Of a stretch of DNA of 64,000 nt, positions 21,401 through 62,401 are shown in pieces (the stretch's first letter is position 1; each line of letters begins with the position of its first letter). Below the pieces are notes generated by a model, which ran no database searches, was not told where the DNA came from, and worked only from the letters and a program-made list of their open reading frames with translations. Both the position numbers and the translations under genes were made by a program. Source of the stretch: Nitzschia sp. DOCU1 (Eukaryota > Bacillariophyta > Bacillariophyceae > Bacillariales > Bacillariaceae); the NCBI GenBank assembly GCA_951394045.1, contig OX595986.1:4741534-4805533 (forward strand), in the 5' to 3' direction.

Positions 21401-24400
21401 GCATCCCACGTTGAAGACATTATTTCTACCCAGCTCGACACTCGTCAAATCGTTCTCGGTCAGCTCGACGCTCATACCAAGGCATTCGTGGAATCAAAAA
21501 GTCCCCACAAGATGCTTTCGAGCCTTGCAACGTTGCCCATGCCATGCCGCCGGGACGGCGCTATTTCGTTGGTTTGGAGTGCCGCCGGAATTTCAAACTT
21601 TGAGTTGCTACTACCATACCTTTCCGGACCTACCGAAAGTAACCCAGAGCTCTATGAATCCATTCCATCTTCGACACTGTTGGATTTGTTGCACGCTTGC
21701 CTTGGACATGTCTGGTCCATCAGCCAGAAAGAGATGGTTGCGGACTCATTGTTGTTCCGGGCTGTCTATCGCTCCTCGAGATTTGCACAGTTGCTTTTTG
21801 ATTGCATTGATCGCGCCCTAGAAGTGAACAAGAAATACGGTGATCCTGATGAGGTTGAAAGGGCGCAATTGCTTGATGGTATCTTAAGTCTCCGTGTACT
21901 TGCGTCGTGCGTGGGATCCAACGTTACGGTTGCCGATTCTGTGTTGCACCCTCAAGGCAAGTCCATCATCTCCAAGTTGGTGTCAGCTGCATCTGAAGTC
22001 AAATCCCTTCCTCTGTCTTCGGGGGGAACCTTGTTTGACATAGAAGCCGAGATCACAGGTCTGCGCCTCGCCACTGGATGTCTCGCTGTCCTTGCTGTCT
22101 TGTGGCAAATTGGCAGGTCCCTCTCGCCGGCCCAGACGGATTCCAAGGGATCCAAGTTGATCGGTGCTCTGGACGATCATGGGAGTTTGATCACTGACCT
22201 TGTGACTATTGTCTCGTCGTATGCCCTTTCGAGCGATCTCGAGGCTAGAGTGGGGGATTCTGCTACCGCCGATTATGCGAGAGGTTCGTTGATAACTTAC
22301 ATGGGCTTGGCTCTTCAGCTACTGGGCACCGAGGCAGCCCATGACGCAAACAAGCAAAGCCCCCGAAATGCTGCACTTCAGAATTTTCTTCTGAAAGACT
22401 TCGTGCGATCGAGTCGATTTATCGGTTTTGAAGGCTATGCAAGGGTAGCCGCAATCTTGGAGGGCTTTCAGACACTTGGGTTTTCAAAGGCCCCTCAGCC
22501 AATAAAGATTCTCCAGTGTTTTCCTGCAACCTCCACCACGCTCTTGGCGCCAGACTTCTTTTCAGGTGGGAATTCGTTTGACGTCTCCGCAGCGGCATAT
22601 TGGCTCTCACAATCGAGCCATGTAGACGAACACACGGTCAATGAGCTTGTCACGAAATTGTCGGTTTCGCAGCAGGTTCTCAATGCGGAGTTATTCGTCA
22701 TGGAAGCATGGAAACGATTCGCAGAAATGGGCGTTCTCTATCATGCCCACCTGGCCGATGGCGTATCGAGCACGGAACGTGTATTCGGTTTTGTACAAGA
22801 TACGATACAAGCTTTCTGTATGCAACTTGGGACCGTGAACATGGTTCAAGTCGAGAAAGGCGATTTCTTGGCGGCTGAATGTCGTCGAATGGCCAACACC
22901 TTAGCCGATACCCTGCTTTACTTTTTGAACATGGGTGCGCAGTATACGGATCCACGCAGGCTCTCCTTCGACGAACTCGTCACCATATTGGGGAAGGTCG
23001 CCGATGGTGCCGTCTTGGTGCTAGCAGTATCCTTTCCTACCGGCATCGATTCGGAACCAGCTTCAGAACAATCGTGCTTGGCCCTTTCAAAGACTATCTT
23101 GGCGAGCGCTATTGTTGTTCTAAACACTATCGACGCAAACGGAACGACATCAGATGGAGACCAAAGCTCTCGGGTTTACGAATCATTTAAGTCTCTGTGC
23201 CGGGTAAACAGCAAAACTCTACAGATTGCTTGTAATCTTTTGCAGCGCAATCCGCCGTTGGCCCTTCAACAAGATCTGCATGAGTCGTTTGTATGCTGTA
23301 TTTCTTTGTTCACATCATTGCTCACGAGAAATCACGGCTCGCGCCTTGACGATAATCTTTATTTCAAGGCCGTCACTGAAATCATGTTGGAGTACAATGT
23401 TGCAGAATACTTTCTGGAACAAGCAATTCGCTGTTCCGTCGAAGCGGCGAAGTGTATATCAAAGGATGGATCATCACGCACCCCCGGTGCTCAGGAGCAT
23501 CTCCTGCTTCTCCAAGGAGTGCTCGATCTTTTGTTCTCGATCGCGGAAGCGGGTAGCACGGACTTGGTGGGAATGCTTCCCTGCCCCAAGCTGGCGCAGC
23601 TTCTTGTTCGCAATCCCCTGTTTTCTTTGCCTCACGGCGACAATAACAATGGCATGCCTCGGGGCTACGTTGTGTCGAAACCGAATAATGGAGGCTACGT
23701 CCCAGGCACGTTCCAAGTGGGCGAAGATGACCCGCTACATATTGTGTGGACTACGTCAATGAAGATTTTGACGGCTTGCATGCACGGGTCGTCGAGCAGT
23801 GGGACCGGACACGAGTTTCTTGACATATCGCTGGAGTTTCTTCAAGTTTATCACGCCGAACACATTTTCGCTCTCAAAGCTTGCGGATCTAGACTGACCA
23901 GAAACGGTCTGAACGAAGCGAGTTCTCTTCTGGGCTTAGTGGCTGCAATTTGCAAGAGGAACACACGCGACTACTCGTTACGTGCCCAACGGGCCCTCTG
24001 CCTAGAATTGGTGGAGTGGGCAAAGGTGGTTGTGGCAAGTCTTGCGAAATTTCTAGGTGCTGCGGGAGCTGCCAGAGAATTGTTTCATTGCATTGAACAG
24101 TTATGTTCGGAAAGTGAAAACCTTGAAATCGGTTCAAGTCTAAACGTCGAACTCTGGCACCCGCTCCTTGACGAAGGCGTCCCCAGCGCAAAACACGAAG
24201 CTGTCAAATTCTCTCATTATGCATCAAAGTGCTACCAGCGCGTTACGGCCAGCGATTTCCGGGCGTCTTCTGGCACGTCCCAGCGATTGATTGGTTTGGA
24301 AAAATCTAACGAAAACGACACGGACCTCGAACGCGCATCACGTGTATCTATCACAAACGAATTTGCTGGCATAATGGAAAGGTGCGCTGCCGCATGTCTA

Positions 24401-25300
24401 GGACAGGCCGTTTCGGTACTTTGGAGGATGCACCCATCCTCCTTTTCGTTCAGGATGGTCGGGCAAGCCGAAATAGGCAACTTTGCCGTCATGACCCTGG
24501 TAAAAACTGGGACTATTATTGGTTTCCATCCTTTTGAGGGCGGAGGTGCGTTGCTAAAGAAAGGTGACGGCTTTGACGCATTGAACTTTGGAAGAGTTGT
24601 CTCCATTGATACAATCAAGAGGACATGGACAGTTTCGCCTCTAAAACACAGCGGTTCCAAGATTGGATCGGAGGTCGATTGCCCGACATGGCTGGTTCGG
24701 GCTGGCCAACTGGCTGGTTTCGAGGATCCATCGTACCGAAAGGCGTCGACTGCCTACCTACCCGCTCCAAATCCAATGTCAGAGCTTGAAAACACTGGCA
24801 ACAAACTCAGTCTTGGTCACTTAATTCTCATTCTACGCTGGTGCCATCAGGAAACCTTGTTCCAACATGGCGGGTCGTCCGTCGAGAATGGGCCGACCGT
24901 TGACGGGGCGGTTCGGACGCTGGCTGAACAAGCCACTGCTTTACTTGGGGCTGAACTCGCGATTCATGAGGAAGTTGGAAGTGGACTGCACTCGCCACCC
25001 GAAGCCAAACAAAAACTGGACGCTCAGATCTTCGAACTTTTTGCATGCCGAGCTAGCGATTGTCCTGATGACGAAGCTGCCGTCGGCATGAGAGATGGAA
25101 GGTTGAAGTCCGTAATCGATAGCTCCGCCTGGGATACGGTGCGATCGCAGGTCGGTGCCGAAGTCCAACGCTACTGGAGGGAAAGACAAGAAAAGGAACG
25201 ACGTCGTAGTGAAAAGCGGGTCCATGGAAGCGACATGTGGTACCCTGGGCTGCATCGGAAAGGCCATTCCCAAAAGAGCGCCTTTCGGGGAATTGGATAA
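18443..25300 (+). CDS. giant alpha-helical protein, tentative Nup188/Nup205-type nucleoporin
   Basis: One uninterrupted exon of 2285 residues from the ATG at 18443 (MAFSAHSGSTSSS). It is almost wholly helical, with amphipathic Leu/Ala-rich helices along its length, no signal peptide and no clear membrane segment, as expected for an alpha-solenoid. The N-terminal part (about 95-260: AAVSALLGGIS, HHQQQRLARLGVLTECL, RREACEALLVLLYERI) and the part near 1800 (LDISLEFLQVYHAEHIFALK) recall the large inner-ring scaffold nucleoporins Nup188/Nup205, and the length is close to theirs. The C-terminus is charged and basic. Such proteins build the nuclear pore inner ring. The match rests on length, fold type and loose motif resemblance, so another giant HEAT/ARM-like protein remains possible. 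That a real protein is encoded is almost certain from the intact frame. Confidence 0.75.
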   Translation: MAFSAHSGSTSSSAYAFQDDDEETWKLVASSESPADLGQRLTSLAGRLEEDHPSNPFWETILEKVQSHGFRYSSGGVQSLSKSNNSTKPPVAFESEAGQRHIAAVSALLGGISNDRAVQVTLNALRSIDSDGSQFQSLLGSRDLLWKTLLHHQQQRLARLGVLTECLRLEQDPEASAHGQVQSFLDSLDSLFKDEDRYRGLFRRLLTIACGPTITPSREQLEPAKELRTDQSRLNSGTSTPQQEWHAFGASLVEELQMQQMRERREACEALLVLLYERINDGVRRSDYAILLLAFQSSNEFFTKAPGPPGQVTRLTQLAGLICAECTALWRTLEDSSSHSVWAAQHPLLLEISGSGHPQVAKQEIEALRVILSDLVQEALLRNAGVAPESLGMLSFGLLLCLAHQSFQASAPGPHDVWSSFATTGTEMVQLANDQCGAFDYLYTVLDDLTRTASSKRSSAAHDRLYDWQFANKTHSLLLENGAISSKDTAPDSTAFTSIAREILAASISSFEGSVLAIDKSDSCDNIGMLCKIGAKVFQNNPLLCEQFWSDWEEYSGGNSSTSPFPICKLLDASHRLAIAALQAYGQGQVPKEFFVQAVAPFFQLLSTLCHTSELVETTVATLPEGLVRHALLSCRLSLSSPGLPTSDYQKSRFVLLTAIGRLALYGNSRSCLEQLRLSLEESSQRGVVDGPRVLSRLIVGENQLQDTVEPVLTIMAHLLDGAPQEWALHLAREIMESQDSQKVTLAKCFSPGGPTVHAASLVLAELIEHLTAVVFCDAVNAHDAIVFLHCVKSSLLAAAAALASSLSIPTMTSSATIFSFETAQTILQSLSNFLKVVRTVIELHGSGLVRDNGVQVRDSIIDALATSTGLGHAIIYYATAPVSLTLAIKLQGAMEDRSILQQVAIGASYDADEAQKYGAWQAYLAENQRNSSTDLGKQFLFESIAKLTSDDIDLDGIMARNWTGVPDAKAPFDTAFSAIRLLSQWASHVEDIISTQLDTRQIVLGQLDAHTKAFVESKSPHKMLSSLATLPMPCRRDGAISLVWSAAGISNFELLLPYLSGPTESNPELYESIPSSTLLDLLHACLGHVWSISQKEMVADSLLFRAVYRSSRFAQLLFDCIDRALEVNKKYGDPDEVERAQLLDGILSLRVLASCVGSNVTVADSVLHPQGKSIISKLVSAASEVKSLPLSSGGTLFDIEAEITGLRLATGCLAVLAVLWQIGRSLSPAQTDSKGSKLIGALDDHGSLITDLVTIVSSYALSSDLEARVGDSATADYARGSLITYMGLALQLLGTEAAHDANKQSPRNAALQNFLLKDFVRSSRFIGFEGYARVAAILEGFQTLGFSKAPQPIKILQCFPATSTTLLAPDFFSGGNSFDVSAAAYWLSQSSHVDEHTVNELVTKLSVSQQVLNAELFVMEAWKRFAEMGVLYHAHLADGVSSTERVFGFVQDTIQAFCMQLGTVNMVQVEKGDFLAAECRRMANTLADTLLYFLNMGAQYTDPRRLSFDELVTILGKVADGAVLVLAVSFPTGIDSEPASEQSCLALSKTILASAIVVLNTIDANGTTSDGDQSSRVYESFKSLCRVNSKTLQIACNLLQRNPPLALQQDLHESFVCCISLFTSLLTRNHGSRLDDNLYFKAVTEIMLEYNVAEYFLEQAIRCSVEAAKCISKDGSSRTPGAQEHLLLLQGVLDLLFSIAEAGSTDLVGMLPCPKLAQLLVRNPLFSLPHGDNNNGMPRGYVVSKPNNGGYVPGTFQVGEDDPLHIVWTTSMKILTACMHGSSSSGTGHEFLDISLEFLQVYHAEHIFALKACGSRLTRNGLNEASSLLGLVAAICKRNTRDYSLRAQRALCLELVEWAKVVVASLAKFLGAAGAARELFHCIEQLCSESENLEIGSSLNVELWHPLLDEGVPSAKHEAVKFSHYASKCYQRVTASDFRASSGTSQRLIGLEKSNENDTDLERASRVSITNEFAGIMERCAAACLGQAVSVLWRMHPSSFSFRMVGQAEIGNFAVMTLVKTGTIIGFHPFEGGGALLKKGDGFDALNFGRVVSIDTIKRTWTVSPLKHSGSKIGSEVDCPTWLVRAGQLAGFEDPSYRKASTAYLPAPNPMSELENTGNKLSLGHLILILRWCHQETLFQHGGSSVENGPTVDGAVRTLAEQATALLGAELAIHEEVGSGLHSPPEAKQKLDAQIFELFACRASDCPDDEAAVGMRDGRLKSVIDSSAWDTVRSQVGAEVQRYWRERQEKERRRSEKRVHGSDMWYPGLHRKGHSQKSAFRGIG

Positions 25301-36542: not shown

Positions 36543-37287
36543 GACTGGCCATCAAGACAGTGGCGAACAAAGCTAGCGCTGACCAAATCCAGGTACCGTG
36601 TTGTTCCTCTATTCAGCAAGATACTACTAAGATAGCCTTATTTTTTACAACGAATATTCAGTTGCCTGCTCTTGAGGATTTGTAGCCAGTTCAAATGCCA
36701 CCTAGAGAGGCGTGCGACAGCTGATTCTTCAACTAAGTACAATCATTCGCAGTAGTGGGATAGGCACAGTCAGGATTAGGTTTTGGCAGCATCAAAAGAA
36801 ACGTTACAGTGCTTCATCGTCGACCTACTTGTTGCTAGAGCATTGTACCAAACATTACCAGTATTGAGTAGAGCATAATAACAATCATTGCGCTAGTTCA
36901 CGGCGCTAGCAGTGTTGTCGCTTCGTGCTGCTTTCCCTATGTGGCCTACCTTTGCTACCGGGGTCCAAATTGGAAATTGGATGCTCGAGATTCGCGATGC
37001 GCGGCACCGTTCTCTTCTTTGTGTGAGATGATGGTGAAAATTTGCGAGCTCGACTGGCGCGCACGGGATTTCTCATCCAACGTACTAAACACATTCAAAC
37101 TCCCTAAGTATCTTGAAGAACGCCCAACGCTCCATCATCCGTTGATTGATCCGCACGTGACGTCACACTACTACCGATGCTACCGTAGCTAATAAATGTA
37201 GCGCTCTCGTGGAAAGTTGGACATCTTCGGCAAAGGACCATTTTTGCCAAGGCTGCAACACGTCTCTCAAGATAGTAGACGAGAACG
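36543..37287. other. intergenic region upstream of the zinc-finger-like cluster
   Basis: About 745 bases between two plus-strand genes. It holds a compound CACGTGACGTCA site at 37154-37165. No gene is supported; short frames lack domains. Confidence 0.45.
37154..37165. promoter_or_regulatory. overlapping G-box and CRE (CACGTGACGTCA)
   Basis: CACGTG (37154-37159) overlaps a perfect TGACGTCA palindrome (37158-37165), about 123 bases upstream of the ATG at 37288. The pair could bind bHLH and bZIP proteins in competition. Inferred from sequence only. Confidence 0.5.
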
Positions 37288-39192
37288 ATGAAGGTCGATA
37301 TGCAACGACATCGATCTTTTACTCGGGCTATATCGAGAAGTTTCACGCGGTCAAGGAGCAAACTGAGGAAGAATGAAGAAAATGAAGAAATTGTGGGAGA
37401 CCAAGTTGCTTGGAAAGGCGAGGAAGGCCTCGCCCATGAAGATACGGCTGAGGAAGTGCGGCAGCCTGTTGATAATACTTCAAATGAAGGCGTGATAACA
37501 CCTTCGTATATTGCTCAAGCATTTAAAGAAATTTTGTACAAGGATGAGGATCTCGAGGAAGATTACTCGTTCAGTAGCGACGACGCCGACCCAGACGAGG
37601 GAAACTATGGTGAAAGCATGTGTTTGTGTTCTTGGGACGGAGGCGATACACTCCTGCATGAAAGTCCAGACTGGGCAGAGCAGGGAGACTTTGACGACAC
37701 CCGAGATGATTCAAATAGCCTTGTTGTTGACGAGATTTCAAGAGAAGAGGGCGACGAAATCCATCCAGAAGAAAGTGGATGCGACTGCTTCGGAGGGTGT
37801 TTTGGCAACAAAAAATTGGGAGACAGTCCCGAAGTGCTTGCTAATGCCGATGAAGATGACTCGTCGATACTTACCAGTCCTAGCCTTTTGCTGGCTCGCA
37901 TGATTCAAGAGAACGATGGCCACCAAAGGAATATTATTCGACGTTATGAGCGCGATGAGGACGCTGCAAATTTGACGTCTCCGAGCATGTTTCGTGAAAG
38001 ATTGGTGCCGCACGAAGCCGACAATAATGGGACCAACGATGAAACGTGCAAGCAATCCTCGTCGGGTGCAAACGATGTTTCTCCCGTTTCTCTTTTGACG
38101 TCAACTTTGGATGATGCCTTTATTTTCTTGAATGGACATTCCAAGGCATGTTGCGAGCACTGTCGCCAGCCCTTCGACTTTGCAGAAACAAGGATCGCCG
38201 ATTTCTGCGGCATAAGAACCTCGAACGTGAGAGCTCTTTTTCACCCACACTGCAGGCTTGTCCGCAACGAAATCAAGAAACAGAAGAAACTCGTTCTAAG
38301 GCAAATCTCTCTTTTTGGGTACCTCAAAAGGGAACGACTCCTCCAGGCGAGACGCGCTAGGAACACAACCAGACAGTTGGCATTGGAAAAGCAACGTCAA
38401 CGTCAAGGCATCCAAGAAGTTCGCCTTGCACACCACGAAGTAGAAGGTAAAGCATTGAACAAACGGTTTCCAAACAACAAGAAGTCCCATGATGATGCTA
38501 TTTCAAGCAAGAAGAAGAGTAAGAGACATCAAGCCAAAGATCTCCAGCCCTCCAGGACGGCTCAAATACACCGACGTCCAAATGCAACTAGCGGAGCTCG
38601 ACGTGTGAATTCACGCTCAAAGAGTCCAGTCAAGAGCCAGCCGAACACGCAGCCCCTGCAGTCATCCACTCGATCTGAACGTGTCAAACCAAACCAAAGC
38701 CTACTTGAGCGTTTTTCAGTTCGTACTCGAAATCGCCAAGCTGAAAGCCAACCCCTTTTATCGATTCCAAAGTCCTCACCAAAGACAACTAGACGTCAGG
38801 GAACGAGTCTTGAAAGATCTGCGCGTATTCGAAATATCTCTTTAGGAGGAAATGCGAAACCATCTGAAATGAGAGCAAAGGAACATCGTCCAAGCACGAA
38901 ATTTCCAAGCAAAACTCAAAGCCAGAGAGATCAGGTGAAGATGGGACAGCGAAAACCTATAACCTCGAACGTCAATGCACTCTCATCAGACGCCGAAGCT
39001 TTGGATATGCCAATCTCTATGAACGCGAGGCAAGGAGGCCAGGGAACGAGGCAAAGAACGAAATCTCCGAACCGTAATGCTCAACGATATCGCCGCTCCG
39101 CCTCACCGAGCAGGAAGCCTTGTGCATCGAAGAAAAGCACGAAATCGACGACCCATTCGATGGGGGCCTTCCTTCAGAGAGCAAGACGGTGA
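37288..39192 (+). CDS. C2HC zinc-finger-like disordered protein, cluster member 1
   Basis: A single exon of 634 residues from the ATG at 37288. The N-terminus is basic (RHRSFTRAISRSFTRSRSK) and is followed by an acidic region to about 280. Residues 289-319 hold C-x2-C-x26-H-x2-C (CEHCRQPFDF ... LFHPHC), and a basic helical segment (VLRQISLFGYLKRERLLQARR) follows. The remaining 270 residues are Ser/Arg/Lys-rich, with SRSKSPVKS and RTKSPNRN motifs as in SR proteins. A separate Cys cluster (CDCFGGCF, about 168-175) is unique to this member. There is no signal peptide or membrane span, so nuclear or cytosolic action is likely. The Cys/His spacing is near that of PARP-type zinc fingers (C-x2-C-x28/30-H-x2-C), which sense DNA ends. 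The family is not one I recognise. Confidence 0.68.
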   Translation: MKVDMQRHRSFTRAISRSFTRSRSKLRKNEENEEIVGDQVAWKGEEGLAHEDTAEEVRQPVDNTSNEGVITPSYIAQAFKEILYKDEDLEEDYSFSSDDADPDEGNYGESMCLCSWDGGDTLLHESPDWAEQGDFDDTRDDSNSLVVDEISREEGDEIHPEESGCDCFGGCFGNKKLGDSPEVLANADEDDSSILTSPSLLLARMIQENDGHQRNIIRRYERDEDAANLTSPSMFRERLVPHEADNNGTNDETCKQSSSGANDVSPVSLLTSTLDDAFIFLNGHSKACCEHCRQPFDFAETRIADFCGIRTSNVRALFHPHCRLVRNEIKKQKKLVLRQISLFGYLKRERLLQARRARNTTRQLALEKQRQRQGIQEVRLAHHEVEGKALNKRFPNNKKSHDDAISSKKKSKRHQAKDLQPSRTAQIHRRPNATSGARRVNSRSKSPVKSQPNTQPLQSSTRSERVKPNQSLLERFSVRTRNRQAESQPLLSIPKSSPKTTRRQGTSLERSARIRNISLGGNAKPSEMRAKEHRPSTKFPSKTQSQRDQVKMGQRKPITSNVNALSSDAEALDMPISMNARQGGQGTRQRTKSPNRNAQRYRRSASPSRKPCASKKSTKSTTHSMGAFLQRARR

Positions 39193-40044
39193 TGGAGGCT
39201 TTGTCTGGTGATAGCGCAGCCCACGAGAACAGCGACTATTGTTTTTGTGAATGGGATTAATGTCGACGATGGCGTTTCAGTGATGTTGATAAATATTTAA
39301 GATTGCACTGTGTGTTTCAGGTAGCTCTAGATTGGCGGTTCGGGCAGGACTATTAACCGCTGCCCCTCTCTTGCACAAGATCAAAAAAGACTTCTCATGT
39401 CATAGGAACCCGGCGGGATGTCGTCGTAGATATTGAAATGTTTCGGTATGCTACAGCGATATGCCAAACAAATACCGCACAGACAGACAGTTCGGCGGCT
39501 ACACCCGCGAACGGACAGGCAGTTAATCATTTTGTGCATAGGGAATCAGAGATCGGCGAGAGCCCCAGCCACTGTCTGTACCTGGTATTTATTTACAGTC
39601 AGTACAACCGAATTGCTTCAACGCAAGCTCCCGTGGTAGCTGAATAGGTTTTTCGGTGATCGCCATGCTTGCTTGGCGCTGCTAGCGTCGTTGGGGCGGG
39701 GCCTTAATTGTACTCCACGTGTTCCTCACGACGTAATATATTTCAGTGGTGCGCAATAAGTCAGTTTCAACGGCGGGCTATATTGAAATCGGCACGCGGA
39801 TTCGCGAGGGCAATAATGAGACCCGGCTTCAACGCCAGGAAGGCATGAACACATAGTACTTATCGAGCAGTCTCCTCTGTACCCTCAACGGTCTCAGTCC
39901 GTCCGTTTTGCCGCGCATCTCCGCCGGAGGTTAAAATAGAGGTAATTTTTCCTTCTTTTGTCGGCATAAAAGTGACCTACCCAACACTGTTGAAAGCACA
40001 GAATACAAAAGCTCAAAGCACTAACGACAATCGATTCCATCACC
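39193..40044. other. intergenic region between cluster members 1 and 2
   Basis: About 850 bases. The frames around 39433-39647 lack domain-like sequence. No repeat shared with the gaps around the other cluster members was seen. Confidence 0.45.
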
Positions 40045-43000
40045 ATGAAGTTTCGTGGTAAACTTAACCGCTCTGTTGTTGTTCAGAAGTTTTCGAAGGT
40101 GCTTCATGCGAAGAACGAAGCAACTGCAGAACACGCCGAGTCGTCCTCAACCATGCAGAGCAGCGACAAGGATGCTCGGTGCGATAGCGCTTCGTTACAC
40201 CGAGGTAATGGGCCATCTTCTTCACAAGTACGGGAGCACCCTGGAGAGCAGGATATTGAAGATAAAGCAGTTATATCGACAATTCATGACTCCACGATAT
40301 CGGCTCCTGACCAAATTGATTCTCAGGGTCCAACCCCAGATGAAACCAAAAGCGGTGGATCGCGGTCATCAAGAGATGACGTTTCTCAGGGTCTAACCCC
40401 AGGTGACACCAAAAGCCATAGATCGCGGTCGTCAAGAGATGATGCTTCCACTTGGTACTCAAGAGATGACGCTTCCACTTGTTATTCACGAAGGACTGGT
40501 GGCTCATCATATACATCAGACTCTTCGTACTACACAGAAAGCGAGGACGAGAGCGTCATTTCGCCGTCTTTTGTTTTGGATGCAATTCACGAGTTGGATT
40601 GGTACTTCGATAAAAGCTTCGATGAGAGCGAGCCTACGCATCTGGAAGTGATAGAATCGTTCTCTAGCTACGAAACTGGGGACAGTCAGAGCAGTTGTTC
40701 AAGTCAGAGCGAGACAGATGCCATTGATCAAACAAGCCACAAAACAGACAAAAGTACTAGCGCTAAGAAGCAAGAGTTGCTGCCAGAGGAGAACAGCAAG
40801 TGTGATAATCTCGTGGATGGCAAACGTCTACACGAAGAAAGCGAAGACAGCATTGACAAAGGTGAGACAGCTGCAACACTAAACTCATCATGTCAAGAAG
40901 CCGTGAGTGATCAGGAGTATGAGGTGCAGTATGCGCGACCGCCAGCCGAGTGTAACACGAGCTTGTCTGAAGAAAAGAAGATCACGGATGGAGCAGAAAC
41001 GAATTTCAGCGACGAAGGAAAGGACGCTTCAGAGTCGCAGTCGGGCAGAAGAGTCGAAAACAAGAATCCAACATTGCAGAAAAAGAATTCGACAAGCACA
41101 GCAAGCGTTGCTTTCGAGATGACGGTGTTGGATCATCTCCAACAGAAGAAGATTATGGATGCCGACAACATTTCCCACACAAGCGGGCTCCCGGAACTCG
41201 GAGGAGGCGAAAAACCCATCGAAGATGGATTTGAGAAAGAGTTGCCGCCCGCGAAACTTGTCGTCGGCAACGGGAACAACAAAGTAATCGATGACGGAGT
41301 CGAAGAATCGTTGTCAACCTATCTCCAGTGGAAGACTGAAGCTGTTGCAACACGCGATCGAAATCTCAGGTTCACCCAGCGCCATGAGGAAACAGCCAAG
41401 AAATGTTCAGTGGCACTCGATGGTAATGTATATGGAAAATGGCGCAATTTCCTTTTTAGTAGCAAGAGAAGCGCAGAGGACCGTGGTCAATGCCAGAAAG
41501 GTGCAGCGACTGGCTCGCGCCCTCCGTCACTGCGTTCTACTGAGAAGGACACCCCAAGCAATGAATTAGTGCGAAACAAAATGGAACTCAACGCCGACAA
41601 AACTGGGCCAAACATGTCCTCGACCAAAAGGAACAAGACAGAATATGATGCCATCAAGCGAGATTCTCGTTCCTCGGATATGCTGAGAGACCGCATTGCA
41701 GAGCAGTCAAAAAACCCTACAATCCTGTTACAGACAAATACAGAAGAAAGCTATGAGGAAATTGCATGGTGTGCCCCGGAGATACAAGATGGTACGCCTC
41801 GGTCCGATGACCGTGAAGAGATCCAAGGAAGTGAAAATAACCAGTCTGTCATGATTGACAATAAGTCTGGCGCATCACCAATGTTGGATTTCTGGAGGAA
41901 AATTCTGGGAGAAGACCCCGAAGATATACACAGGTCTATGCTCCCCCATGATCAATCCGACAGTCATAAAGGGAGTAACAATGCACAGCTGGAGGAACTC
42001 CAAGGATCCTTTTTCGGCTTCCATCTCGGTAGCAAGAGGAACTCAGAAGATCGTGGCCATTACCAGAAAGATGTATCCACTCAATCACGCCCTCCATCAC
42101 TACGTCGTACTGAGAAGGATGCCCCAAGCAACCACGGATGTGTGGCCAACGAAACGGGATCCACCGACAAAACTGGGACAACCATGTCGCCGACTAAAAG
42201 GAACAAGACAGTAGATGATGCCATCAAGCGAGATGCTCGCTCCTCGGATATGTTGAGAGACCGCAACGCAGAGAAGCCAAAAACCCCTACAACTCCGGTG
42301 CAGTCATACACAAACGAAAGCCATGAAGAAATTGCATGTCGTGCCCCGGAGATACAAGTTGGTCCGCCTCGGTCCGACGATCGCGAAGGAATCCAAGAAA
42401 ATGAAAACAAACAGTCTGCCATGATTGACAATTCGTCTGGCACATCACCAATGTTGGATTTCTGGAGGAAAATTCTGGGAGAAGACCAAGATACACACAG
42501 GTCTATGTCCTCCAATGAACAGTCCGACAGTCCTATAAGGAGTGCCAATACGCAGCCAGAGGAACTCCAAGGATCCGTTTTTGGCAGCTGGCTCGCCCCT
42601 TTTACCACGTCATCTGTTGCTTGTGAGCATTGCAAGAAACACTTCTCGTTCGTCGACAGCAAAGTCGAGGAATACGTTGGCAACCCACGTTCGGGGGTCA
42701 AATCAATGTTTCATACTTCTTGTAGAGAAGAGCGCGCATTATTTCATCGAGAGAAGCGAAAAGCGCTTCGTCAAATCGCGTTGTACGGCTATCTGAAAAG
42801 GAGGCGTGCACCAATGATGCAGCCAAGGAAGATTAAAAAACTCACGAAACAAAAGAGACACGAGCAATCGAAAATACCTGAACGCGTTGAGAAGACCAAT
42901 GTTTTGCACAGGATTTTCGGTCGTCGAACCAAAAATTCGCTCGATAAAGTGCAATCGAACAAGGAAGATTCTGATAAGGCTGAGAAGAAAAGCCTAGTGC

Positions 43001-43902
43001 CGGTTGAGGAAAGAAAACTCGTAGCCTTCCACGAGTCAACCAAAACAACGGGCCATGGGAAAACGTCCTTGCAAGTCCATAACCTCGGAAGCCGCGAAAT
43101 TGAGAGGAGACCATTGAAACCGCCGACGACACGACAAAGAAGTCTCAGTCCAGCAAAGAAGAAAATGGAACACCAGGGTCGCGAAGCAAGAATTTTCGCC
43201 AGATTGACTGCTCCAGGGCACCCTAGGAGCCCACTCCGCGGGCAAGCCGCGCTACGTATGATCAAGCCAAAGCGCTCCGGAACTTCAAACCCAGTTCCCC
43301 AACGGCGCCCCGGAACTTTAAGCCCAGTACCCCGTCGTGTCATGAATGAACCATCAAATCCTCAAAATCAAAAGGCACCTGCAAAATTCAATGACCGACA
43401 ACTTCAAAGCACGCATCTGGGCTCTGCAAGTCGTCCCGCCAGACGACAAGAGGATGTAGCGGTGCGACGCCGGTTTGAAGACACTGGGAAAGGCAAGTCA
43501 CCGAAAACCATGTTAGCCTCCCAAGAAAGATCATCGAAAACTTGGGGTAAGCCCGTCGATACAACGACCACTACACCATGGACACCTGCCCGAAGAAGTT
43601 CCCGATCTCTGACCGACGAAAAGGTTTGGCCTTGCCGCAAGTCCCCTACAGTTGACCAAACTGGACGAGGGTGTACTCAGCAGGAAAGTTACGACAACAA
43701 CAACAACAACCGGCACAACCGTGGTGCCGGGCCACAAACATCTGCGATGCGATCATCTCGTTTTACACCGCCCAGGAGTCCTGCCATGAAAGAATCCAGG
43801 GATTACAACTATCTGGTTGATCCCGAAGTCGCATTTCGCATGGTACCAACCGAGAAATACCTGAGACTGAATCCAACTCAACCAATGAAGAAACACCGGT
43901 AA
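40045..43902 (+). CDS. C2HC zinc-finger-like disordered protein, cluster member 2, with internal tandem repeat
   Basis: A single exon of 1285 residues from the ATG at 40045 (MKFRGKLNR). Residues about 80-170 are SR/DD-rich short repeats (SRSSRDD, STWYSRDD/STCYSRR). Residues about 470-655 and 655-840 form a tandem repeat of about 185 residues, with landmarks SRPPSLR, TKRNKT, SDMLRDR, PEIQ and SPMLDFWRKILGED in both. The signature C-x2-C-x26-H-x2-C starts at residue 860 (CEHCKKHFSF ... MFHTSC), followed by the basic helix ALRQIALYGYLKRRR. The C-terminal 350 residues are basic, with repeated RSLSPAKK, PVPQRRPGTLSPVPRR and an Asn run, and end PTQPMKKHR. No targeting signal is seen. It is the closest relative of member 1 by the finger and flanking helix. 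Its function is unknown. Confidence 0.7.
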   Translation: MKFRGKLNRSVVVQKFSKVLHAKNEATAEHAESSSTMQSSDKDARCDSASLHRGNGPSSSQVREHPGEQDIEDKAVISTIHDSTISAPDQIDSQGPTPDETKSGGSRSSRDDVSQGLTPGDTKSHRSRSSRDDASTWYSRDDASTCYSRRTGGSSYTSDSSYYTESEDESVISPSFVLDAIHELDWYFDKSFDESEPTHLEVIESFSSYETGDSQSSCSSQSETDAIDQTSHKTDKSTSAKKQELLPEENSKCDNLVDGKRLHEESEDSIDKGETAATLNSSCQEAVSDQEYEVQYARPPAECNTSLSEEKKITDGAETNFSDEGKDASESQSGRRVENKNPTLQKKNSTSTASVAFEMTVLDHLQQKKIMDADNISHTSGLPELGGGEKPIEDGFEKELPPAKLVVGNGNNKVIDDGVEESLSTYLQWKTEAVATRDRNLRFTQRHEETAKKCSVALDGNVYGKWRNFLFSSKRSAEDRGQCQKGAATGSRPPSLRSTEKDTPSNELVRNKMELNADKTGPNMSSTKRNKTEYDAIKRDSRSSDMLRDRIAEQSKNPTILLQTNTEESYEEIAWCAPEIQDGTPRSDDREEIQGSENNQSVMIDNKSGASPMLDFWRKILGEDPEDIHRSMLPHDQSDSHKGSNNAQLEELQGSFFGFHLGSKRNSEDRGHYQKDVSTQSRPPSLRRTEKDAPSNHGCVANETGSTDKTGTTMSPTKRNKTVDDAIKRDARSSDMLRDRNAEKPKTPTTPVQSYTNESHEEIACRAPEIQVGPPRSDDREGIQENENKQSAMIDNSSGTSPMLDFWRKILGEDQDTHRSMSSNEQSDSPIRSANTQPEELQGSVFGSWLAPFTTSSVACEHCKKHFSFVDSKVEEYVGNPRSGVKSMFHTSCREERALFHREKRKALRQIALYGYLKRRRAPMMQPRKIKKLTKQKRHEQSKIPERVEKTNVLHRIFGRRTKNSLDKVQSNKEDSDKAEKKSLVPVEERKLVAFHESTKTTGHGKTSLQVHNLGSREIERRPLKPPTTRQRSLSPAKKKMEHQGREARIFARLTAPGHPRSPLRGQAALRMIKPKRSGTSNPVPQRRPGTLSPVPRRVMNEPSNPQNQKAPAKFNDRQLQSTHLGSASRPARRQEDVAVRRRFEDTGKGKSPKTMLASQERSSKTWGKPVDTTTTTPWTPARRSSRSLTDEKVWPCRKSPTVDQTGRGCTQQESYDNNNNNRHNRGAGPQTSAMRSSRFTPPRSPAMKESRDYNYLVDPEVAFRMVPTEKYLRLNPTQPMKKHR

Positions 43903-44090
43903 AGTGTCACACAAGAACATAAACAACAACAACCGGCAAAACCGTGGTGCCGAATCACAAACATCTGCGTTGCGATCAAAGTGTTTCGCACCCAAGAGTT
44001 CTGCCATGAAAGAGTCCAGGGATTACAACCATCTTGTTGAGCTCGATGTAGTTTTTCAAATCGTACCAACCGAGAAAAACCCGAAACTAT
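43694..44090. repeat. tandem duplication of the 3' end of cluster member 2
   Basis: Two units offset by about 222 bases share ACAACAACAACCGGCA, CGTGGTGCCG, CTGCCATGAAAGA, TCCAGGGATTACAAC and GTACCAACCGAGAAA. Unit 1 is coding (the gene's C-terminus); unit 2 lies after the stop codon and has drifted. Confidence 0.8.
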
Positions 44091-44796
44091 ATCCGCCTTC
44101 TGCCATTGAAACCGAATCACCACTTCGGGATCTACAACTAGCCGATTCTTTATTCAAACGGGAGAGTGCGGAACCGCTGTTTGATAAGGAAGACATGATG
44201 CGCGAAAAGGAAGCGTCGCCAAAAATCGATTTGTAATAGTAGTAGGACTATAACGTTTTCTGTTAGGATCAATAATATGTTATGTATCATGCTAGAGCGA
44301 TGCAACGCAGCTACCAACTCATAGCCAGCACGATTCATGACGCAACTGTTTCTCTAGTACTTGTAATTTGGACTCTCTATGAACCAGGTATGACATGCTG
44401 TATGTCGCATCGCCCCAAGGCTTTCGTACTTTCCGTTGGAGCACATGGTAATTAGATGGTAAAGATACGGTGGTGCTCGTTGCTGGATGCGTTTTGCTTC
44501 GTGAAATATGCCTCCAAAAGAGAATCACATTGTTCAACGGTCTATGAAGTAGTATGGTAAAATTACCGTAGAGCGAAACTTCTTGTGAGCTTGGATACCG
44601 GTATCCTGGTGCCAAGATTTTCGTCTTGTTTCTCAACGACACCAAACAGCTCAAATTCCGATACAACAATCGTCTTTTTTCAATCTTTTGTTCAATCGCC
44701 CTCAAGGGCATTGGGGGCTTCTCAAAACCATATGACAATAAAAGGGATAACTTCACACGCAGGAGCCAAGAACAAACGGTGCACCAAGAATCCAAT
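43903..44796. other. intergenic region with a duplicated gene tail
   Basis: The first ~180 bases (about 43915-44090) copy the last ~180 bases of cluster member 2 (about 43694-43870) in another frame relative to that gene, with no usable ATG. The rest (44240-44796) may hold the promoter or an unseen 5' exon of member 3. Confidence 0.6.
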
Positions 44797-47700
44797 ATGT
44801 TATCTAATGAAAAGCCTTTGGGAACAACCGAAGGTTTCTTTGGAATGCACGTAAGGGGGGCATTGAATTCAATGTTGAACCAGGAGACAACAAAAGAAGC
44901 GAGCCAGACCAAGATTTCTGATACGTCGCCAGCATATCAGCCTGATTTGGAGGGCGCAAATGAATGCTACGAAACCAGAGATGAAACGACGCCGTTCAGA
45001 GAAGAGGAAGGAGAGCGTGATTTCTCTCGTTCAAACGACGAGGAAAAGAACACCTCAAATACAAAGAAGCGAATTGGTTGGTTCCCCTTTCAGCCTCCAA
45101 CTCACAAGACTCAAGATATGAAAGTCATCAAACCCGATAACCACGTCCAACATGCTGACACTTGGACGGCGCCTGATGGGTCATCATTTGATTCTAGTAT
45201 CACCAGCGTAGGCAGTCACGATGACTTCTTTTTGTCGCGGGCTTTCGGGGCATTCGATAGCATCCTATTGGGTGATATGCGTGGCTTGGAAGGAAACGAA
45301 GATGCTGACAAAGACGATGATACGATACACAAGTTGGGAGAAATGATACAGAAGAACGGTCAACTGTCCGTTATCCATGAAATGGACGAGGATACAGTGT
45401 CTACCTCGGTTGCACCAACCAATAAAGCGCTTCATCCTGTCAGTCATTTGCTTGGTGGAATTGCTGGGCCGTTATTTACTGATGCGACAAAACCTTACAA
45501 AAGAGAACAACTTCCTTCACCCGCTGAAATGAAGCTCCCTCCAAGTGAAGATGACCATGGGTCTCCAACGACGTCTCCACGGGACATCATCGACGCCAAA
45601 AACTGCGAAAATGGGGTGGGGTCAAGTAACAGCAACCTGTTCAAGAGCACCTCCGCTCGTTCCGGTTTCTGGAGAAGTCAATCTCATGCTAAAGTTGACT
45701 CCATTGGCCCTCTCAAGGACCTGGGGTCTGATGCTCGTACGTGGATTGATGATGATGGTGCAATCGATTCCGTCGAACAATGTGAAGCTCCCTCTACAAA
45801 GAGCCAGGTCCAAGTATTCGACGCCCGCTCCGAAAGCGACAGCGTGGGCACGGCATCGACTGCCAATAATTCACATTCACCGTCAGTTGTGGTCCCACCA
45901 AACGTAAAGACGACCGAAGCCCAGAGCATACGCTTATTTTCCTTGCTTCCACAGTGGACCCACGATAAAGACACAGGCACTTATTGTCCACAATCAAATC
46001 AAGACCCGGAATCAGACCATGGCGCTCCGCCGGGGAACGCGTCTTCTGCCATGACAGTGAAACCGAACGGCGAATGCACGAGAGCCGAAGACACAAGCAA
46101 GGCCAAGTCCGAGATGCGACCTACAGAAAAAGTTCAAAATAGCATAAGAAAGTTTCCCACTTTGTCCTTCACACTGGCGAAGCCGAACAATCATGGCTAT
46201 GGAGCTACTATCGTCGAAGAGAACCATGGAATTGAGATTCTCCCAACTGCATCGTTGGATTCGACGAAAGATTTTTTCACGAGTAGGACCAAGTCCGAAA
46301 AGAGACATTCGGAGAGGGTTCGTAATAGCAGGAGGAAGTTTCCCTCTTTGTCCTTCACACTGGCAAAGCCGAACAATCATGACGATAAGACTCCAATTGC
46401 ATTGTTGGAATCGACAAAAGACTTTTTCAAGAGCGTAATTCAGAGGGTCGACGATACCGAAAAAAGAAAACCATTTTCAAAAACACCGAAATCCGAGAAG
46501 AGGATAAATCAGGATACAGTCACGGCCAATTCGTCTAGGATTCCCTGGCTACAGCGTTCAAAGCCTAAAAACCATGAAGTGCTGACGCAAAACGTTGATG
46601 TGGGTGTCGAGTTGGTTTCATTGCCCCTTCCGAGGAATATAATAGGGGAACGCCACGGAGACTCCCAACCCGCAGATTCGAATTTGGATTCCGCTTCGGT
46701 GCAAAGTCCCGAACCTGCCAAAGAGCAATCGAGCGTCATGCTGAAAGAATTGGGAGTGAAATCAGCACTCGTCGTTCATCCAGGCATGATAAATCAACCA
46801 ATTGTCGCAACCTTGCTGAAAAGAGAGAAGGTCGACCAGAAGGTTGCCGTCCCGTCCGAACATTGGCTATCGACACCGGCTCTCATGTCATCGTCGGTTG
46901 CGATATGGATGAGGAATACATTCCAGGTCGAATCCGAATTCTGTGAACATTGCAAGGAAATTTTTCAATTTATGGACGCACGGAGCTACGAGTACGTCGC
47001 AAGTCCTCGTTGCCATGTAAAGGGAAACTTCCACCCTGCTTGTTTCAAGGCTCGACACGAAACGATGAAAGAAATGCACAAGGCATTGCGATGTATTCTT
47101 GTGTTTGGACAATTGCGCAGACTCCATGCAAAGAAAGCACTAATGCAGCGAAGGGAAACAAGTAATGCCTCCCCTCCCCATTACACACTCTTTGGCTCGT
47201 TCGTCTATGGTTTGATGCGAAGACAGAAGGATGTGACAAAGCTTGCGATTTCTTTGGACACCTCGACGAACGGTAGCACTTTTTGTAAAAAGGAACACAG
47301 CAGCAGCCAGACAACTGGCATTCAACCGATATCCCATCGTCCGCGTGGGAGAAGTCGTTCACCCCAAGCCAAGTCGGCGAAACCGGCACGAGACAAGAGC
47401 CCTGTCGATTCCAGGGCAAATAGTGCGGATTCCCTCCCTCGGCGTTTAAACAGGAGCCGACCCCATATCCAAGCCCGGACGGCTAAAGGGGCCCGGGACA
47501 AGAGCCCTGTCGCTTCTAGGACAAAAGGTGTTTATTTTTCCCCCCGGTCGCGAAGCGGGAGTCGGCCCCCTCCACAATCCTCGACAACCAAAGCGGCCCG
47601 AAACAAGCAGCCCGTCGTTTCCAAACCCAAAAGAGTGGATTCTCCGCCTAGGCCACGGCGCAGAAGTCGATCCCCTCCACATGCACAGACAGCAAAAGCC

Positions 47701-48066
47701 GTCCGAGATAAAAGCCCCGTCGCCCCCAGGATCAATAGAGCACACTCCCCCTCTCGGTCGCGAAACAAGAGTCGGTCACCTTCCCCTGGAAGGCAAAAGT
47801 CTGCCGCCTCTGATCGTCGGACAAGTAGTAGCGACGTGAGCCAACGATCCGCTTTTTTCCGACGGAAGCCAAAGCTGAACTCGCGGCCACTGTCACCTCC
47901 AAGGAAAAGCTCCCGAAAGGAAGCTTTGCCCCATTCATTGTTGGCTTCCCGTGAGAATCATGGTAAGTTTGAGACGCAGACCAGGGTGGCATCACCAGCG
48001 AAGCGTTCTAGTTGGAGCACGAAACAATCGCAAGCGAGGAAGAGGTGGCCCCACCACAGAGGCTGA
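44797..48066 (+). CDS. C2HC zinc-finger-like RS-repeat protein, cluster member 3
   Basis: A single exon of 1089 residues from the first ATG in frame (44797). The frame is open 171 bases further upstream without an ATG, and that stretch (KFRYNNRL...) faintly resembles the start of member 2, so a 5' exon is possible. The N-terminal 700 residues are acidic and Ser-rich with a duplicated FPTLSFTLAKPNNH/FPSLSFTLAKPNNH module. The C-x2-C-x26-H-x2-C signature begins at residue 716 (CEHCKEIFQF ... NFHPAC), followed by ALRCILVFGQLRRL. Residues about 848-1000 are about four units of a ~36-residue repeat (RSRSP...AKxARDKSPVxSR...SPR), very like an SR-protein RS domain. Nuclear, RNA- or chromatin-related action is a reasonable guess only. 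It converges on RACK1, 95 bases away. Confidence 0.68.
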   Translation: MLSNEKPLGTTEGFFGMHVRGALNSMLNQETTKEASQTKISDTSPAYQPDLEGANECYETRDETTPFREEEGERDFSRSNDEEKNTSNTKKRIGWFPFQPPTHKTQDMKVIKPDNHVQHADTWTAPDGSSFDSSITSVGSHDDFFLSRAFGAFDSILLGDMRGLEGNEDADKDDDTIHKLGEMIQKNGQLSVIHEMDEDTVSTSVAPTNKALHPVSHLLGGIAGPLFTDATKPYKREQLPSPAEMKLPPSEDDHGSPTTSPRDIIDAKNCENGVGSSNSNLFKSTSARSGFWRSQSHAKVDSIGPLKDLGSDARTWIDDDGAIDSVEQCEAPSTKSQVQVFDARSESDSVGTASTANNSHSPSVVVPPNVKTTEAQSIRLFSLLPQWTHDKDTGTYCPQSNQDPESDHGAPPGNASSAMTVKPNGECTRAEDTSKAKSEMRPTEKVQNSIRKFPTLSFTLAKPNNHGYGATIVEENHGIEILPTASLDSTKDFFTSRTKSEKRHSERVRNSRRKFPSLSFTLAKPNNHDDKTPIALLESTKDFFKSVIQRVDDTEKRKPFSKTPKSEKRINQDTVTANSSRIPWLQRSKPKNHEVLTQNVDVGVELVSLPLPRNIIGERHGDSQPADSNLDSASVQSPEPAKEQSSVMLKELGVKSALVVHPGMINQPIVATLLKREKVDQKVAVPSEHWLSTPALMSSSVAIWMRNTFQVESEFCEHCKEIFQFMDARSYEYVASPRCHVKGNFHPACFKARHETMKEMHKALRCILVFGQLRRLHAKKALMQRRETSNASPPHYTLFGSFVYGLMRRQKDVTKLAISLDTSTNGSTFCKKEHSSSQTTGIQPISHRPRGRSRSPQAKSAKPARDKSPVDSRANSADSLPRRLNRSRPHIQARTAKGARDKSPVASRTKGVYFSPRSRSGSRPPPQSSTTKAARNKQPVVSKPKRVDSPPRPRRRSRSPPHAQTAKAVRDKSPVAPRINRAHSPSRSRNKSRSPSPGRQKSAASDRRTSSSDVSQRSAFFRRKPKLNSRPLSPPRKSSRKEALPHSLLASRENHGKFETQTRVASPAKRSSWSTKQSQARKRWPHHRG
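47338..47790 (+). repeat. coding RS-type repeat, ~108-base units
   Basis: About four units, each carrying codons for RDKSPV-like and SRSP-like motifs, in the C-terminal region of cluster member 3. Copies vary in sequence but keep phase. Confidence 0.7.
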
Positions 48067-60289: not shown

Positions 60290-62401
60290 ATGACCGCCTC
60301 GCCTCAATCCGGTATACCGTTGCACCAGCACCACTCGAAATTTCACCTGTCGGCATCAAAATTTCAAAACTTGAGAACGACCACCATGTCCGTCGGCTCC
60401 CTGAACTCTGTGGATCTTCAATTTTCCTGTCCTTCATCCCCTCTCCAAGGGGAGATAGTACGGAAGGAGATTGATGTGTCGCAATTTACGACTCATGACT
60501 ACATGGCCCGAGTTACTGGTGGCCAAACTATTGTTACAAATTCGACAATTCGCGCTGAAATAGCACCAGACACTCATCCTGATAGTCTACGAGCGACGCC
60601 ACCCTCATCGCCTATGGCGGAGCCTGATAATCATCAAGCAAACGCCTCGCCGATGGTGCAACCCAACGATTCTGCCGGCGCGGTGCCGCAGCCTCCTGCT
60701 CCAAATGTTCAAACCGTGGGTACAACGGAAGAGACCGAGCCCAAACGCAAACGCTACCGGTACTCCGGAAAGAAACTACTTGCGGGATCCATGTTATTTT
60801 CAGTCAATGGCACGCCAGTTGAAGGTGTCAATGGGTTTCTAGTTGGGGTCATTGTGGAATGCCCCAACAGAGTCAAGAATGGTGGGCGTTTCCGTGTGGA
60901 TTGGACGAAACATTCCATCGGCATGCCGCCAACTGTGGACAGACAGTTGTTACGTTCATGGTACCCAAATGACGATGCCACGAAGGAGCTATTCCATATA
61001 GCTATTGACGAATATAACAAGGTTGGAGCAGCAGGAATTCCCAACCTTTTGCGATTGTCCTTCCCTGGGAATCCACTCGCGGCCACACCTACGACCGGCG
61101 TTGCTGCCGGTGCTACAGCTACACAACAACAAGAGGATCCAATTGTGGCTGCGACACCCATTCGATTCTACGCTCGCGCAAGTCTGATGACTGCTGCCGA
61201 CTCATTGTCTACGTTGACTCATTCAAATCGCGACCAAGAGCAACAAGTGGCAACCCGTTCCACTCGGTCGAACCAATCGTCAGTCGCTGACTCAACTACA
61301 GACGATGGAACATTGGATGAGGAGGATAATGCTTGGGTGTCGATCCCAGAAATCGTGAACTTAGAAGAAATGGACGAAGACTCGGATGACGGTAGCCTAA
61401 CCGACAATGACGACAAAGAATGGTTGAAAAGAAAGTCGAACAACGAGGCCCCAGGAGCTGTCGCCGAACTTGTGAAGAACATCATTTGGAACTTCGAAGT
61501 GGTTGACGGTGGGAAGGTCTTGGGCGATCTACCCCAGCCATACGATGGTCCTTCTGGCTTGCGACCTGGCGTGGCAGAGTCGTTTAGCACGCCAACTGAG
61601 TGCTTTGAGATTTGTGGTGGCTTCACTCCCCAGTTCGTCCGGAAGCTTTGCGCCGAGACGAATGATTATTTTCATGTCTACATCAAGCCGAAATGCGACA
61701 AGAATCTGACATATTGCAAGGAAAAGTGGGTCAACGTCGACGAGTGGGAGATGAAGCGCTTCTTCGGCATAATGTTAAAAATCTCGCTCAAGGAACAGGA
61801 CGGTGGTGGGTACACGGCGTACTTTCGGAATGAGGACTGGGTTCTGCATACAGGACACGGCACCGACAGGAAGACAAAAGTGATCGGCGACTCGAAGGGC
61901 TGGGCGAGCAAATACATGTCGCTCAATCGTTTCAAGCAAATCAGGGGTGCCTTCCATCCGATGAACAAAGTGGCAGGCTACGGCGGCGACAAGTGCTACC
62001 AACTTCGGCAGGTTTTGAACCAACTCAACGTTGCATCGAAGGCTACTTTCGTTCCATCGGGAAATTTGACCTTTGACGAGGGCGGTGTCGGATGCAGAAG
62101 TCGGCTTTGTCCTGTACGACAATACAACAAGGACAAGCCGCAGAAGTTTCGAGTCGATTTCTTCATCCTTGCCGATGCTAAGTCGTATGCAATCTACCAC
62201 ATGGATGTATACCAAGGCAAAAATCCGGCAGAAAACTATATCCATCCAACTGCCAAGGGGCTGCCGCCAACGCAGAAGGCAGTAGTGAATGCCGTCATGG
62301 AGACTGGAATCGCGAACGACTCAACACCCATGAACATCTTCTCTCGACGAAAAGGAAGATCCACGAGTTGTTTCCAGAGTCGATGTCGTGCCACGACATA
62401 G
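60290..62401 (+). CDS. piggyBac-type transposase, C-terminally truncated
   Basis: About 703 residues from the ATG at 60290; the ATG at 60386 is an alternative start. Residues 1-130 are Pro/Ser-rich and disordered, and about 155-235 form a small domain (GSMLFSVNGTPVEGVNGFLVGVIVE ... FRVDWTK) often found before the transposase core. The DDE_Tnp_1_7 core runs from about 440 (EWEMKRFFGIMLKISL) through MSLNRFKQIRGAFH to LTFDEGGVGCRSR, which contains the first catalytic Asp, and FFILADAKSYAIYHMDVYQGK. At about 685 (GIANDSTPMNIF) the family sequence stops and a short unrelated tail ends the frame. The expected second and third catalytic Asp are therefore missing, so the product should be inactive. 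A frameshift or internal deletion near 62340 is the likely cause. Confidence 0.75.
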   Translation: MTASPQSGIPLHQHHSKFHLSASKFQNLRTTTMSVGSLNSVDLQFSCPSSPLQGEIVRKEIDVSQFTTHDYMARVTGGQTIVTNSTIRAEIAPDTHPDSLRATPPSSPMAEPDNHQANASPMVQPNDSAGAVPQPPAPNVQTVGTTEETEPKRKRYRYSGKKLLAGSMLFSVNGTPVEGVNGFLVGVIVECPNRVKNGGRFRVDWTKHSIGMPPTVDRQLLRSWYPNDDATKELFHIAIDEYNKVGAAGIPNLLRLSFPGNPLAATPTTGVAAGATATQQQEDPIVAATPIRFYARASLMTAADSLSTLTHSNRDQEQQVATRSTRSNQSSVADSTTDDGTLDEEDNAWVSIPEIVNLEEMDEDSDDGSLTDNDDKEWLKRKSNNEAPGAVAELVKNIIWNFEVVDGGKVLGDLPQPYDGPSGLRPGVAESFSTPTECFEICGGFTPQFVRKLCAETNDYFHVYIKPKCDKNLTYCKEKWVNVDEWEMKRFFGIMLKISLKEQDGGGYTAYFRNEDWVLHTGHGTDRKTKVIGDSKGWASKYMSLNRFKQIRGAFHPMNKVAGYGGDKCYQLRQVLNQLNVASKATFVPSGNLTFDEGGVGCRSRLCPVRQYNKDKPQKFRVDFFILADAKSYAIYHMDVYQGKNPAENYIHPTAKGLPPTQKAVVNAVMETGIANDSTPMNIFSRRKGRSTSCFQSRCRATT

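Follow-up and report, generated by a model that had tools for sequence, protein, structure and literature searches.

A predicted treble-clef finger family of diatoms, expanded in Nitzschia and likely to be remotely akin to the PARP-type zinc finger

What do three large neighbouring genes have in common if their proteins hardly resemble each other outside one short block? The question is raised by a stretch of 64,000 nucleotides from the diatom Nitzschia sp. DOCU1 (assembly GCA_951394045.1, contig OX595986.1, referred to as C2, positions 4,741,534 to 4,805,533; "the window" in the following), in which three consecutive genes, W1, W2 and W3, code for proteins of 634, 1285 and 1089 residues. The original prediction described them as tandem same-strand paralogues which share a C-x2-C-x26-H-x2-C block that resembles a shortened PARP-type finger, flanked by acidic disordered N-termini and basic C-termini. 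All three open reading frames (ORFs) could be confirmed on the forward strand, and their features are as follows.

37288..39192, + strand: W1 gene, 634 residues, CxxC at residue 289; ORF with an in-frame stop 3 codons before the ATG
38152..38265, + strand: W1 finger, C-x2-C-x26-H-x2-C-x3-R (motif scan)
38254..38370, + strand: W1 H-x2-C and the basic helix after it, helix net charge +9
38371..39189, + strand: W1 basic tail, net charge +47, 4 SP/TP sites (charge count)
40045..43902, + strand: W2 gene, 1285 residues, CxxC at residue 860; ORF with an in-frame stop 17 codons upstream
41449..42588, + strand: in-frame tandem duplication within W2, 570 bp per copy (self-comparison)
42622..42735, + strand: W2 finger (motif scan)
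42724..42840, + strand: W2 H-x2-C and basic helix, helix net charge +12; helix present in the predicted model of the W2 block
42841..43899, + strand: W2 basic tail, net charge +43, 9 SP/TP sites (charge count)
44797..48066, + strand: W3 gene, 1089 residues, CxxC at residue 716; ORF whose start is less certain because the frame is open for 75 codons upstream
46942..47055, + strand: W3 finger (motif scan)
47044..47160, + strand: W3 H-x2-C and basic helix, helix net charge +6
47161..48063, + strand: W3 basic tail, net charge +58, 13 SP/TP sites, 18 RS/SR (charge count)

The CEHC-x26-H-x2-C arrangement is present in all three proteins, without a gap between the ligands. Translation of the 64 kb in six frames contains exactly three stop-free C-x2-C-x26-H-x2-C motifs, one per ORF; out of 20000 composition shuffles for each protein, the motif reappeared in none for W1, three for W2 and none for W3. 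Little else is common to the proteins, as had been claimed: in BLASTP comparisons among the window proteins (SEG masking, E up to 0.05, pairs reported in one direction only) the W1-W3 and W2-W3 matches are limited to the block, with about 20 residues before it in the case of W2-W3. The W1-W2 pair is absent from this comparison and its figures are taken from the genome search, where it scores 58.6 bits over residues 2-67 of a 72-residue query (E 3e-14 genome-wide). The N-terminal parts are indeed acidic (net charges -38, -44 and -19) and the C-terminal tails basic; the disorder ascribed to them is suggested by composition, as the fraction of W/F/Y/I/L/M/V/C is low in W1-W3 (0.21-0.22, a composition count made without a dedicated disorder predictor).

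When the genome (52.08 Mb, 63 contigs) was searched in six frames with several blocks, the picture of three genes with a fixed spacing turned out to be too narrow. At least nine open-frame members are encoded on contigs C2 and C6, and the family further includes a truncated copy and four proteins from elsewhere; member counts are lower bounds, because the genome search scores only best candidates. Six open-frame members lie outside the window.

L038:5863-7614, contig C2, about 123 kb after W3, opposite strand: C2d, 583 residues
L034:3758-4321, contig C6: C6a, 187 residues, open frame
L035:481-1278, contig C6: C6b, 265 residues, open frame
L035:1892-3799, contig C6: C6c, 635 residues, open frame
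L036:363-1499, contig C6: C6d, 378 residues, open frame
L036:2471-4744, contig C6: C6e, 757 residues, open frame

Genome searches link W1 with C2d (E 2e-6) and C6d with C6e (E 3e-11), and C6c and C6e are tied in through the short members (E 2.3e-4 and 4.4e-4, respectively). With C6c as query, two further faint places were found, on C3 (E 0.37, containing a stop) and on C7 (E 1.83). The truncated copy (L007 on C2) derives from C2d, is cut short in the finger, without the C-x2-C, and is fused to other sequence resembling a retroelement; it is either a recent duplication or an assembly effect. The copy comprises at least 2.6 kb and shows 99.92% identity to the parent C2d gene region over 2624 bp (L037:1-2623 against L038:4098-6721).

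The four proteins from elsewhere were the relatives found among 3704 candidates (sources lgn and ena) in a profile search guided in length by C6b. Three of them are short (177-190 residues) and show 48, 56 and 38% identity to C6b over 79, 51 and 79% of its length, while the fourth, with 377 residues, is a near copy of C6d. Together with C6a and C6b, the outside proteins P0001, P0002 and P0004 form the set of short members, which have a KLFGGCRS-like motif near the C-terminus in common; P0003 is the outside protein with a spacing of 26. The short form is under purifying selection, as dN/dS between C6a and C6b is 0.21 over 138 codons. When the W1 finger region was compared to 5.8 billion proteins, none of 19 candidates was found at E up to 0.1, and with a nine-row profile guided in length by W1, none of 7992 scored candidates came out at E up to 1; this absence of W1-length relatives says little, because the diatom coverage of the protein collection was not gauged. 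Viral contigs searched with P0001 yielded one stretch that fits the pattern and no relative, and no paper on such a family was among those listed by literature searches.

Alignment of the 13 members shows which parts of the block are invariant. All 13 have the four ligands, and in all 13 the fourth residue after the last Cys is Arg, so that the family signature is C-x2-C...H-x2-C-x3-R; the Arg was required in the pattern of the spacing scan, and it is also seen in alignments that were built without this demand. The distance of exactly 26 residues between the second Cys and the His holds for the three window proteins and not across the family. It is 26 in seven members (W1, W2, W3, C2d, C6c, C6d, P0003), 22 in five (C6a, C6b, P0001, P0002, P0004) and 27 in C6e, and thus x26 is not a family-wide rule. 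The conserved basic helix fares alike. The 35 residues after the finger have a net charge of +9, +12 and +6 in W1, W2 and W3 and of +10 in both C2d and C6c; the values are +4 in C6d and +2 in C6e, and the five short members, ranging from -5 to +1, are neutral or acidic here.

A tree was computed from 79 columns for the family and zf-PARP fingers only (midpoint root, 11 of 18 inner branches drawn open). The window trio is a single clade (98/94), which therefore arose by local duplication as had been supposed, and its sister is the other C2 member, C2d (92/85). The trio, C2d and C6c form one branch (83/88), which is the branch with the strongly basic helix, and nucleic-acid binding is a plausible guess for this branch alone. 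The short members are weakly placed and do not form one clade.

Is the finger already known under another name? No Pfam model matches any member at its cut-off, in agreement with the claim that no named family has this layout. The whole window proteins gave no Pfam match at E up to 10, and the search of NCBIfam with the window proteins and P0001 gave only a chance-level match (E 0.086, a dehydrogenase model in W2). The proposed likeness to PARP-type fingers proved correct as a remote likeness across the family and incorrect as membership. At E up to 1, two of nine blocks match zf-PARP (best E 0.0022), and no other Pfam family matches two or more of them. It is also found below threshold in full-length C6b (17.2 bits, E 0.0092) and in P0004 (21.6 bits, E 0.00036), the latter being the best score of the family. 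As the curated Pfam cut-off of zf-PARP (PF00645) is 39.3 bits, membership by curated score was rejected. In a profile search of the PDB, the finger of DNA ligase III ranks fourth (E 0.47) and is aligned over all four ligands; ranks one and two are other proteins that lack the ligand pattern, and rank three is a LIM protein that is matched piecewise.

The likeness was quantified by a permutation test, in which the columns of 11 family blocks were shuffled with the ligands held fixed (C6b and P0003 were left out as near copies). The zf-PARP hidden Markov model (HMM) was built from nine fingers, six of this genome and three from the PDB. The family blocks reach a summed score of 117.3 against this HMM, compared to a permuted mean of 10.0 (standard deviation, sd, 13.3), and none of 1000 permutations scored as high. 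The reverse comparison, zf-PARP fingers against the family HMM, gave 92.1 versus 9.1 (sd 10.6), again with 0/1000 as high; it used eight of the nine fingers, L052 being omitted for its H-x3-C. The likeness to zf-PARP thus exceeds ligand spacing in both directions. It is seen in parts of the family as well, since 0/1000 permutations were as high for C6c, C6d and C6e together, and for the trio alone 5/1000 with all segments and 11/1000 with the hairpin only. When single sequences were used as queries, the nine zf-PARP fingers had z values of 2.07-5.21, with ligase III at the top, while two LIM fingers had 1.72 and 2.67 and eL24 had 0.11 (LIM being represented by these two fingers, and eL24 by one of two genome copies). 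Individual positions agree, too: the fourth residue after the second Cys is hydrophobic in 13/13 family members and 9/9 zf-PARP fingers, the tenth is Arg in 10/13 and 9/9 (the exceptions being Lys in W2, Asn in C2d and Cys in C6e), and the eleventh is hydrophobic in 12/13 and 9/9 (Ser in W3). An aromatic residue precedes the ligand His in 11/13 family members. We consider it likely from these sequence comparisons that the family is remotely akin to zf-PARP.

The block is predicted to be a treble-clef zinc finger, as modelled on the short relative P0001. In the AlphaFold2 model of this protein, a knuckle is followed by a hairpin (91-95/98-102) and by a helix (104-163), and the ten-residue mean pLDDT is 80-98 from residue 71 to 160. 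The predicted helix begins at the H-x2-C in both models, that of P0001 and that of the W2 block.

Given the computed family, its phylogeny, its charge pattern and a likeness to zf-PARP beyond ligand spacing, we propose, at roughly even odds, that this is an unnamed diatom family of treble-clef fingers with remote kinship to zf-PARP, of which the trio members are nuclear proteins that hold nucleic acids and are not break sensors. Most members would have a short amphipathic-looking helix, the C-x2-C knuckle and a beta-hairpin, and then the H-x2-C would open a long helix marked by the invariant arginine of C-x3-R. The loop of the hairpin would be variable in length, which would lead to the spacings of 22, 26 or 27. 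Zinc, if bound, would lock the hairpin to the start of the helix and create a small rigid platform within a mostly unstructured protein. The trio would be the product of local duplication inside the C2 branch. Its helix is strongly basic and runs into a basic S/P-rich tail, with an acidic N-terminal part, and from this combination we infer nuclear proteins that may contact nucleic acid. They would have a loose, sequence-nonspecific hold on DNA or RNA through helix and tail, which phosphorylation of the SP sites might perhaps tune, and they are probably not break sensors of the PARP1 type.

Several results weigh against parts of this proposal. The blocks of the four C2 members have no zf-PARP match in Pfam, and W1 alone shows no likeness to the zf-PARP HMM (0.4 bits, 312/1000). 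All nine zf-PARP fingers are on one side of a 100/100 branch with a length of 2.37, which speaks against close kinship. The tight unity of the family is called into question by C6c and C6e, whose matches to a trio-like consensus are no better than E 0.36 and 0.29, and the neutral or acidic helices of the short members do not fit a family that binds nucleic acids as a whole. The last point favours a different function, in which the finger is a protein-protein adaptor, with zinc capping a long helix whose pairing partner is a second copy of itself or another protein, and the family is cytoplasmic or at membranes; the trio would then have acquired its basic helix and tails later. The short members make up three of the four outside relatives and have a C-terminal motif in common, and P0001 has a predicted helix of 60 residues. 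Motifs resembling the pre-finger helix recur outside the finger of W2 and C6c, and all 13 members lack Arg at the position with which PARP1 grips DNA. On these grounds such an adaptor is a tenable, if somewhat less probable, explanation. It has to contend with the trio's very basic helix and tails and with the likeness to zf-PARP, a family in which the PARP1 fingers bind DNA breaks.

Other observations concern the origin of the fold and not its use. The Pfam results include Zn_ribbon_4, and FYVE_2 in P0002 (19.1 bits versus a cut-off of 27.2, E 0.0016), and a fold search with the P0001 model places a PHD finger and ribosomal chains, presumably eL24, first or close to first among the matches that cover the finger, over about 40 residues. 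These findings count against zf-PARP kinship; they would be expected if an independent treble clef, LIM-, PHD-, FYVE- or eL24-like, had converged on PARP-like positions. One LIM finger exceeds the lowest zf-PARP z value, and the permutation also breaks the hairpin patterning which is common to many treble clefs. We nevertheless regard convergence as rather unlikely: LIM, PHD and Ribosomal_L24e are absent from the Pfam families listed at E up to 1, eL24 has a z value close to zero, and the zf-PARP excess is found in both directions of the permutation. It is improbable that the finger still senses DNA breaks like the first two fingers of PARP1 (F1 and F2). The zf-PARP likeness and the retained Arg ten residues after the second Cys are what one would expect of a sensor, against which stand the missing Arg ahead of the first Cys and the shorter segment between second Cys and His (both discussed below), and the Pfam results for the nine proteins, which include no catalytic or ligase domain. 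Chance similarity among unrelated unstructured proteins might be suspected, as the proteins are otherwise unlike each other and compositionally biased. It is already refuted by the genome-wide W1-W2 match, the invariant ligands, the purifying selection in the C6a-C6b pair and the rarity of the motif.

The locus of the trio is undergoing duplication, as indicated by two repeats in W2. The tandem copies (41449-42018 and 42019-42588) are in frame, and their dN/dS of 0.61 over 189 codons is as expected of a loosely constrained part. Each copy contains DFWRKILGE, which resembles the helix before the finger of other members, and by BLASTP both W2 and C6c have repeats of such motifs at a distance from the finger. 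In addition, about 180 bp of the 3' end of W2 (43694-43874) are repeated beyond the stop codon (43917-44094) with 82-83% identity. Upstream of W1, 134 bp ahead of its start (37154-37165), we found CACGTGACGTCA, presumably a composite G-box/CRE-like site. Its part TGACGTCA is upstream of none of the eight other members, and in a search for a promoter element common to the nine genes no 8-mer occurs in more than five of the nine upstream regions (600 bp each, 362 bp for C6d). Elsewhere in the window, a 2285-residue ORF (18443-25300, + strand) has no Pfam match at E up to 0.01, and a 703-residue ORF (60290-62401) has a DDE_Tnp_1_7 transposase domain (E 6.6e-20), which we assume to be piggyBac-like.

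The genome also contains matches to the silicon transporter (PF03842), with up to 604 bits; this transporter family is a marker of diatoms, and the matches identify the organism as one. The nearest one begins 15.8 kb after W3 (window position 63858; G000 C2:4805391-4809131), and further matches on C2 (4837445-4844309 and 4952465-4954161) flank C2d on either side; others are located at 1.5 Mb on C2, on C5 and on C12. When four transporter loci and three finger loci were placed at random on a line as long as the genome, 1.4% of the trials had a transporter-finger pair within 30 kb, and 6.7% had one within 150 kb. The interleaving was noticed post hoc and is only a lead. From the interleaving of the two clusters on C2 one might speculate that this diatom-specific finger family is tied to silica biology, its SP-rich and largely unstructured proteins helping to regulate silicification genes or to pattern the wall from the cell side. 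We rate this as a long shot; if true, a PARP-like finger would have given up the sensing of DNA breaks and taken on a new role as a scaffold.

As a result of this analysis, a family with the clear signature C-x2-C-x22-27-H-x2-C-x3-R can be named, which has at least nine genes in one diatom, and annotators could label proteins that have no current Pfam name. The link to the PARP-type finger is testable, and the family is possibly a case of a DNA-break finger that has drifted to another use. PARP genes are reported to be patchy in this group (PMC4245714).

How, then, does the finger compare to those already known? The first module of LIM (PF00412) has C-x2-C...H-x2-C in common with the family. 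LIM membership was rejected since the H-x2-C is followed by C-x3-R and a helix, no further C-x2-C is present in the aligned blocks, and LIM is not among the Pfam matches; the lack of a C-x2-C right after H-x2-C means that there is no second LIM module. PHD (C4HC3) and FYVE need eight zinc ligands, and PHD membership was rejected as the four ligand positions alone are conserved in the family. From eL24 it differs in having no sequence likeness past the ligands.

This genome has zf-PARP fingers of its own. L051:499-1986 on contig C1 codes for two, with spacings of 21 and 27, after which comes the putative start of an SNF2-type helicase, and L053 (C4) and L054 (C12) have closely similar fingers with a charged stretch after each, in frames of 306 and 262 residues. 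With zf-PARP, as known from PARP1 F1 and F2 and from DNA ligase III, all 13 family members have the C-x2-C...H-x2-C ligands in common, and the spacings overlap (22-27 in the family, 21-31 in the zf-PARP fingers used). The family differs in the C-x3-R after the last Cys (13/13 versus 0/9, one of the nine ending before that place), in the long helix that follows the finger, and in the segment from second Cys to His, which has 28 and 30 residues in PARP1 F1 and F2. According to two reports, PARP1 fingers touch DNA via the arginines R18 and R122 and also via a loop that stacks on bases and contains F44 or L161/I164 (PMC8150716; PMC4678113). In our alignment, R18 and R122 are located three residues ahead of the first Cys of their fingers. 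None of the 13 family members has Arg at this place, which is a weak criterion because just five of nine zf-PARP fingers carry it; together with the shorter segment, its absence makes a break-sensor role unlikely. With zf-PARP on a separate, fully supported branch and no grip Arg in the family, the relation between the two is one of remote kinship rather than membership.

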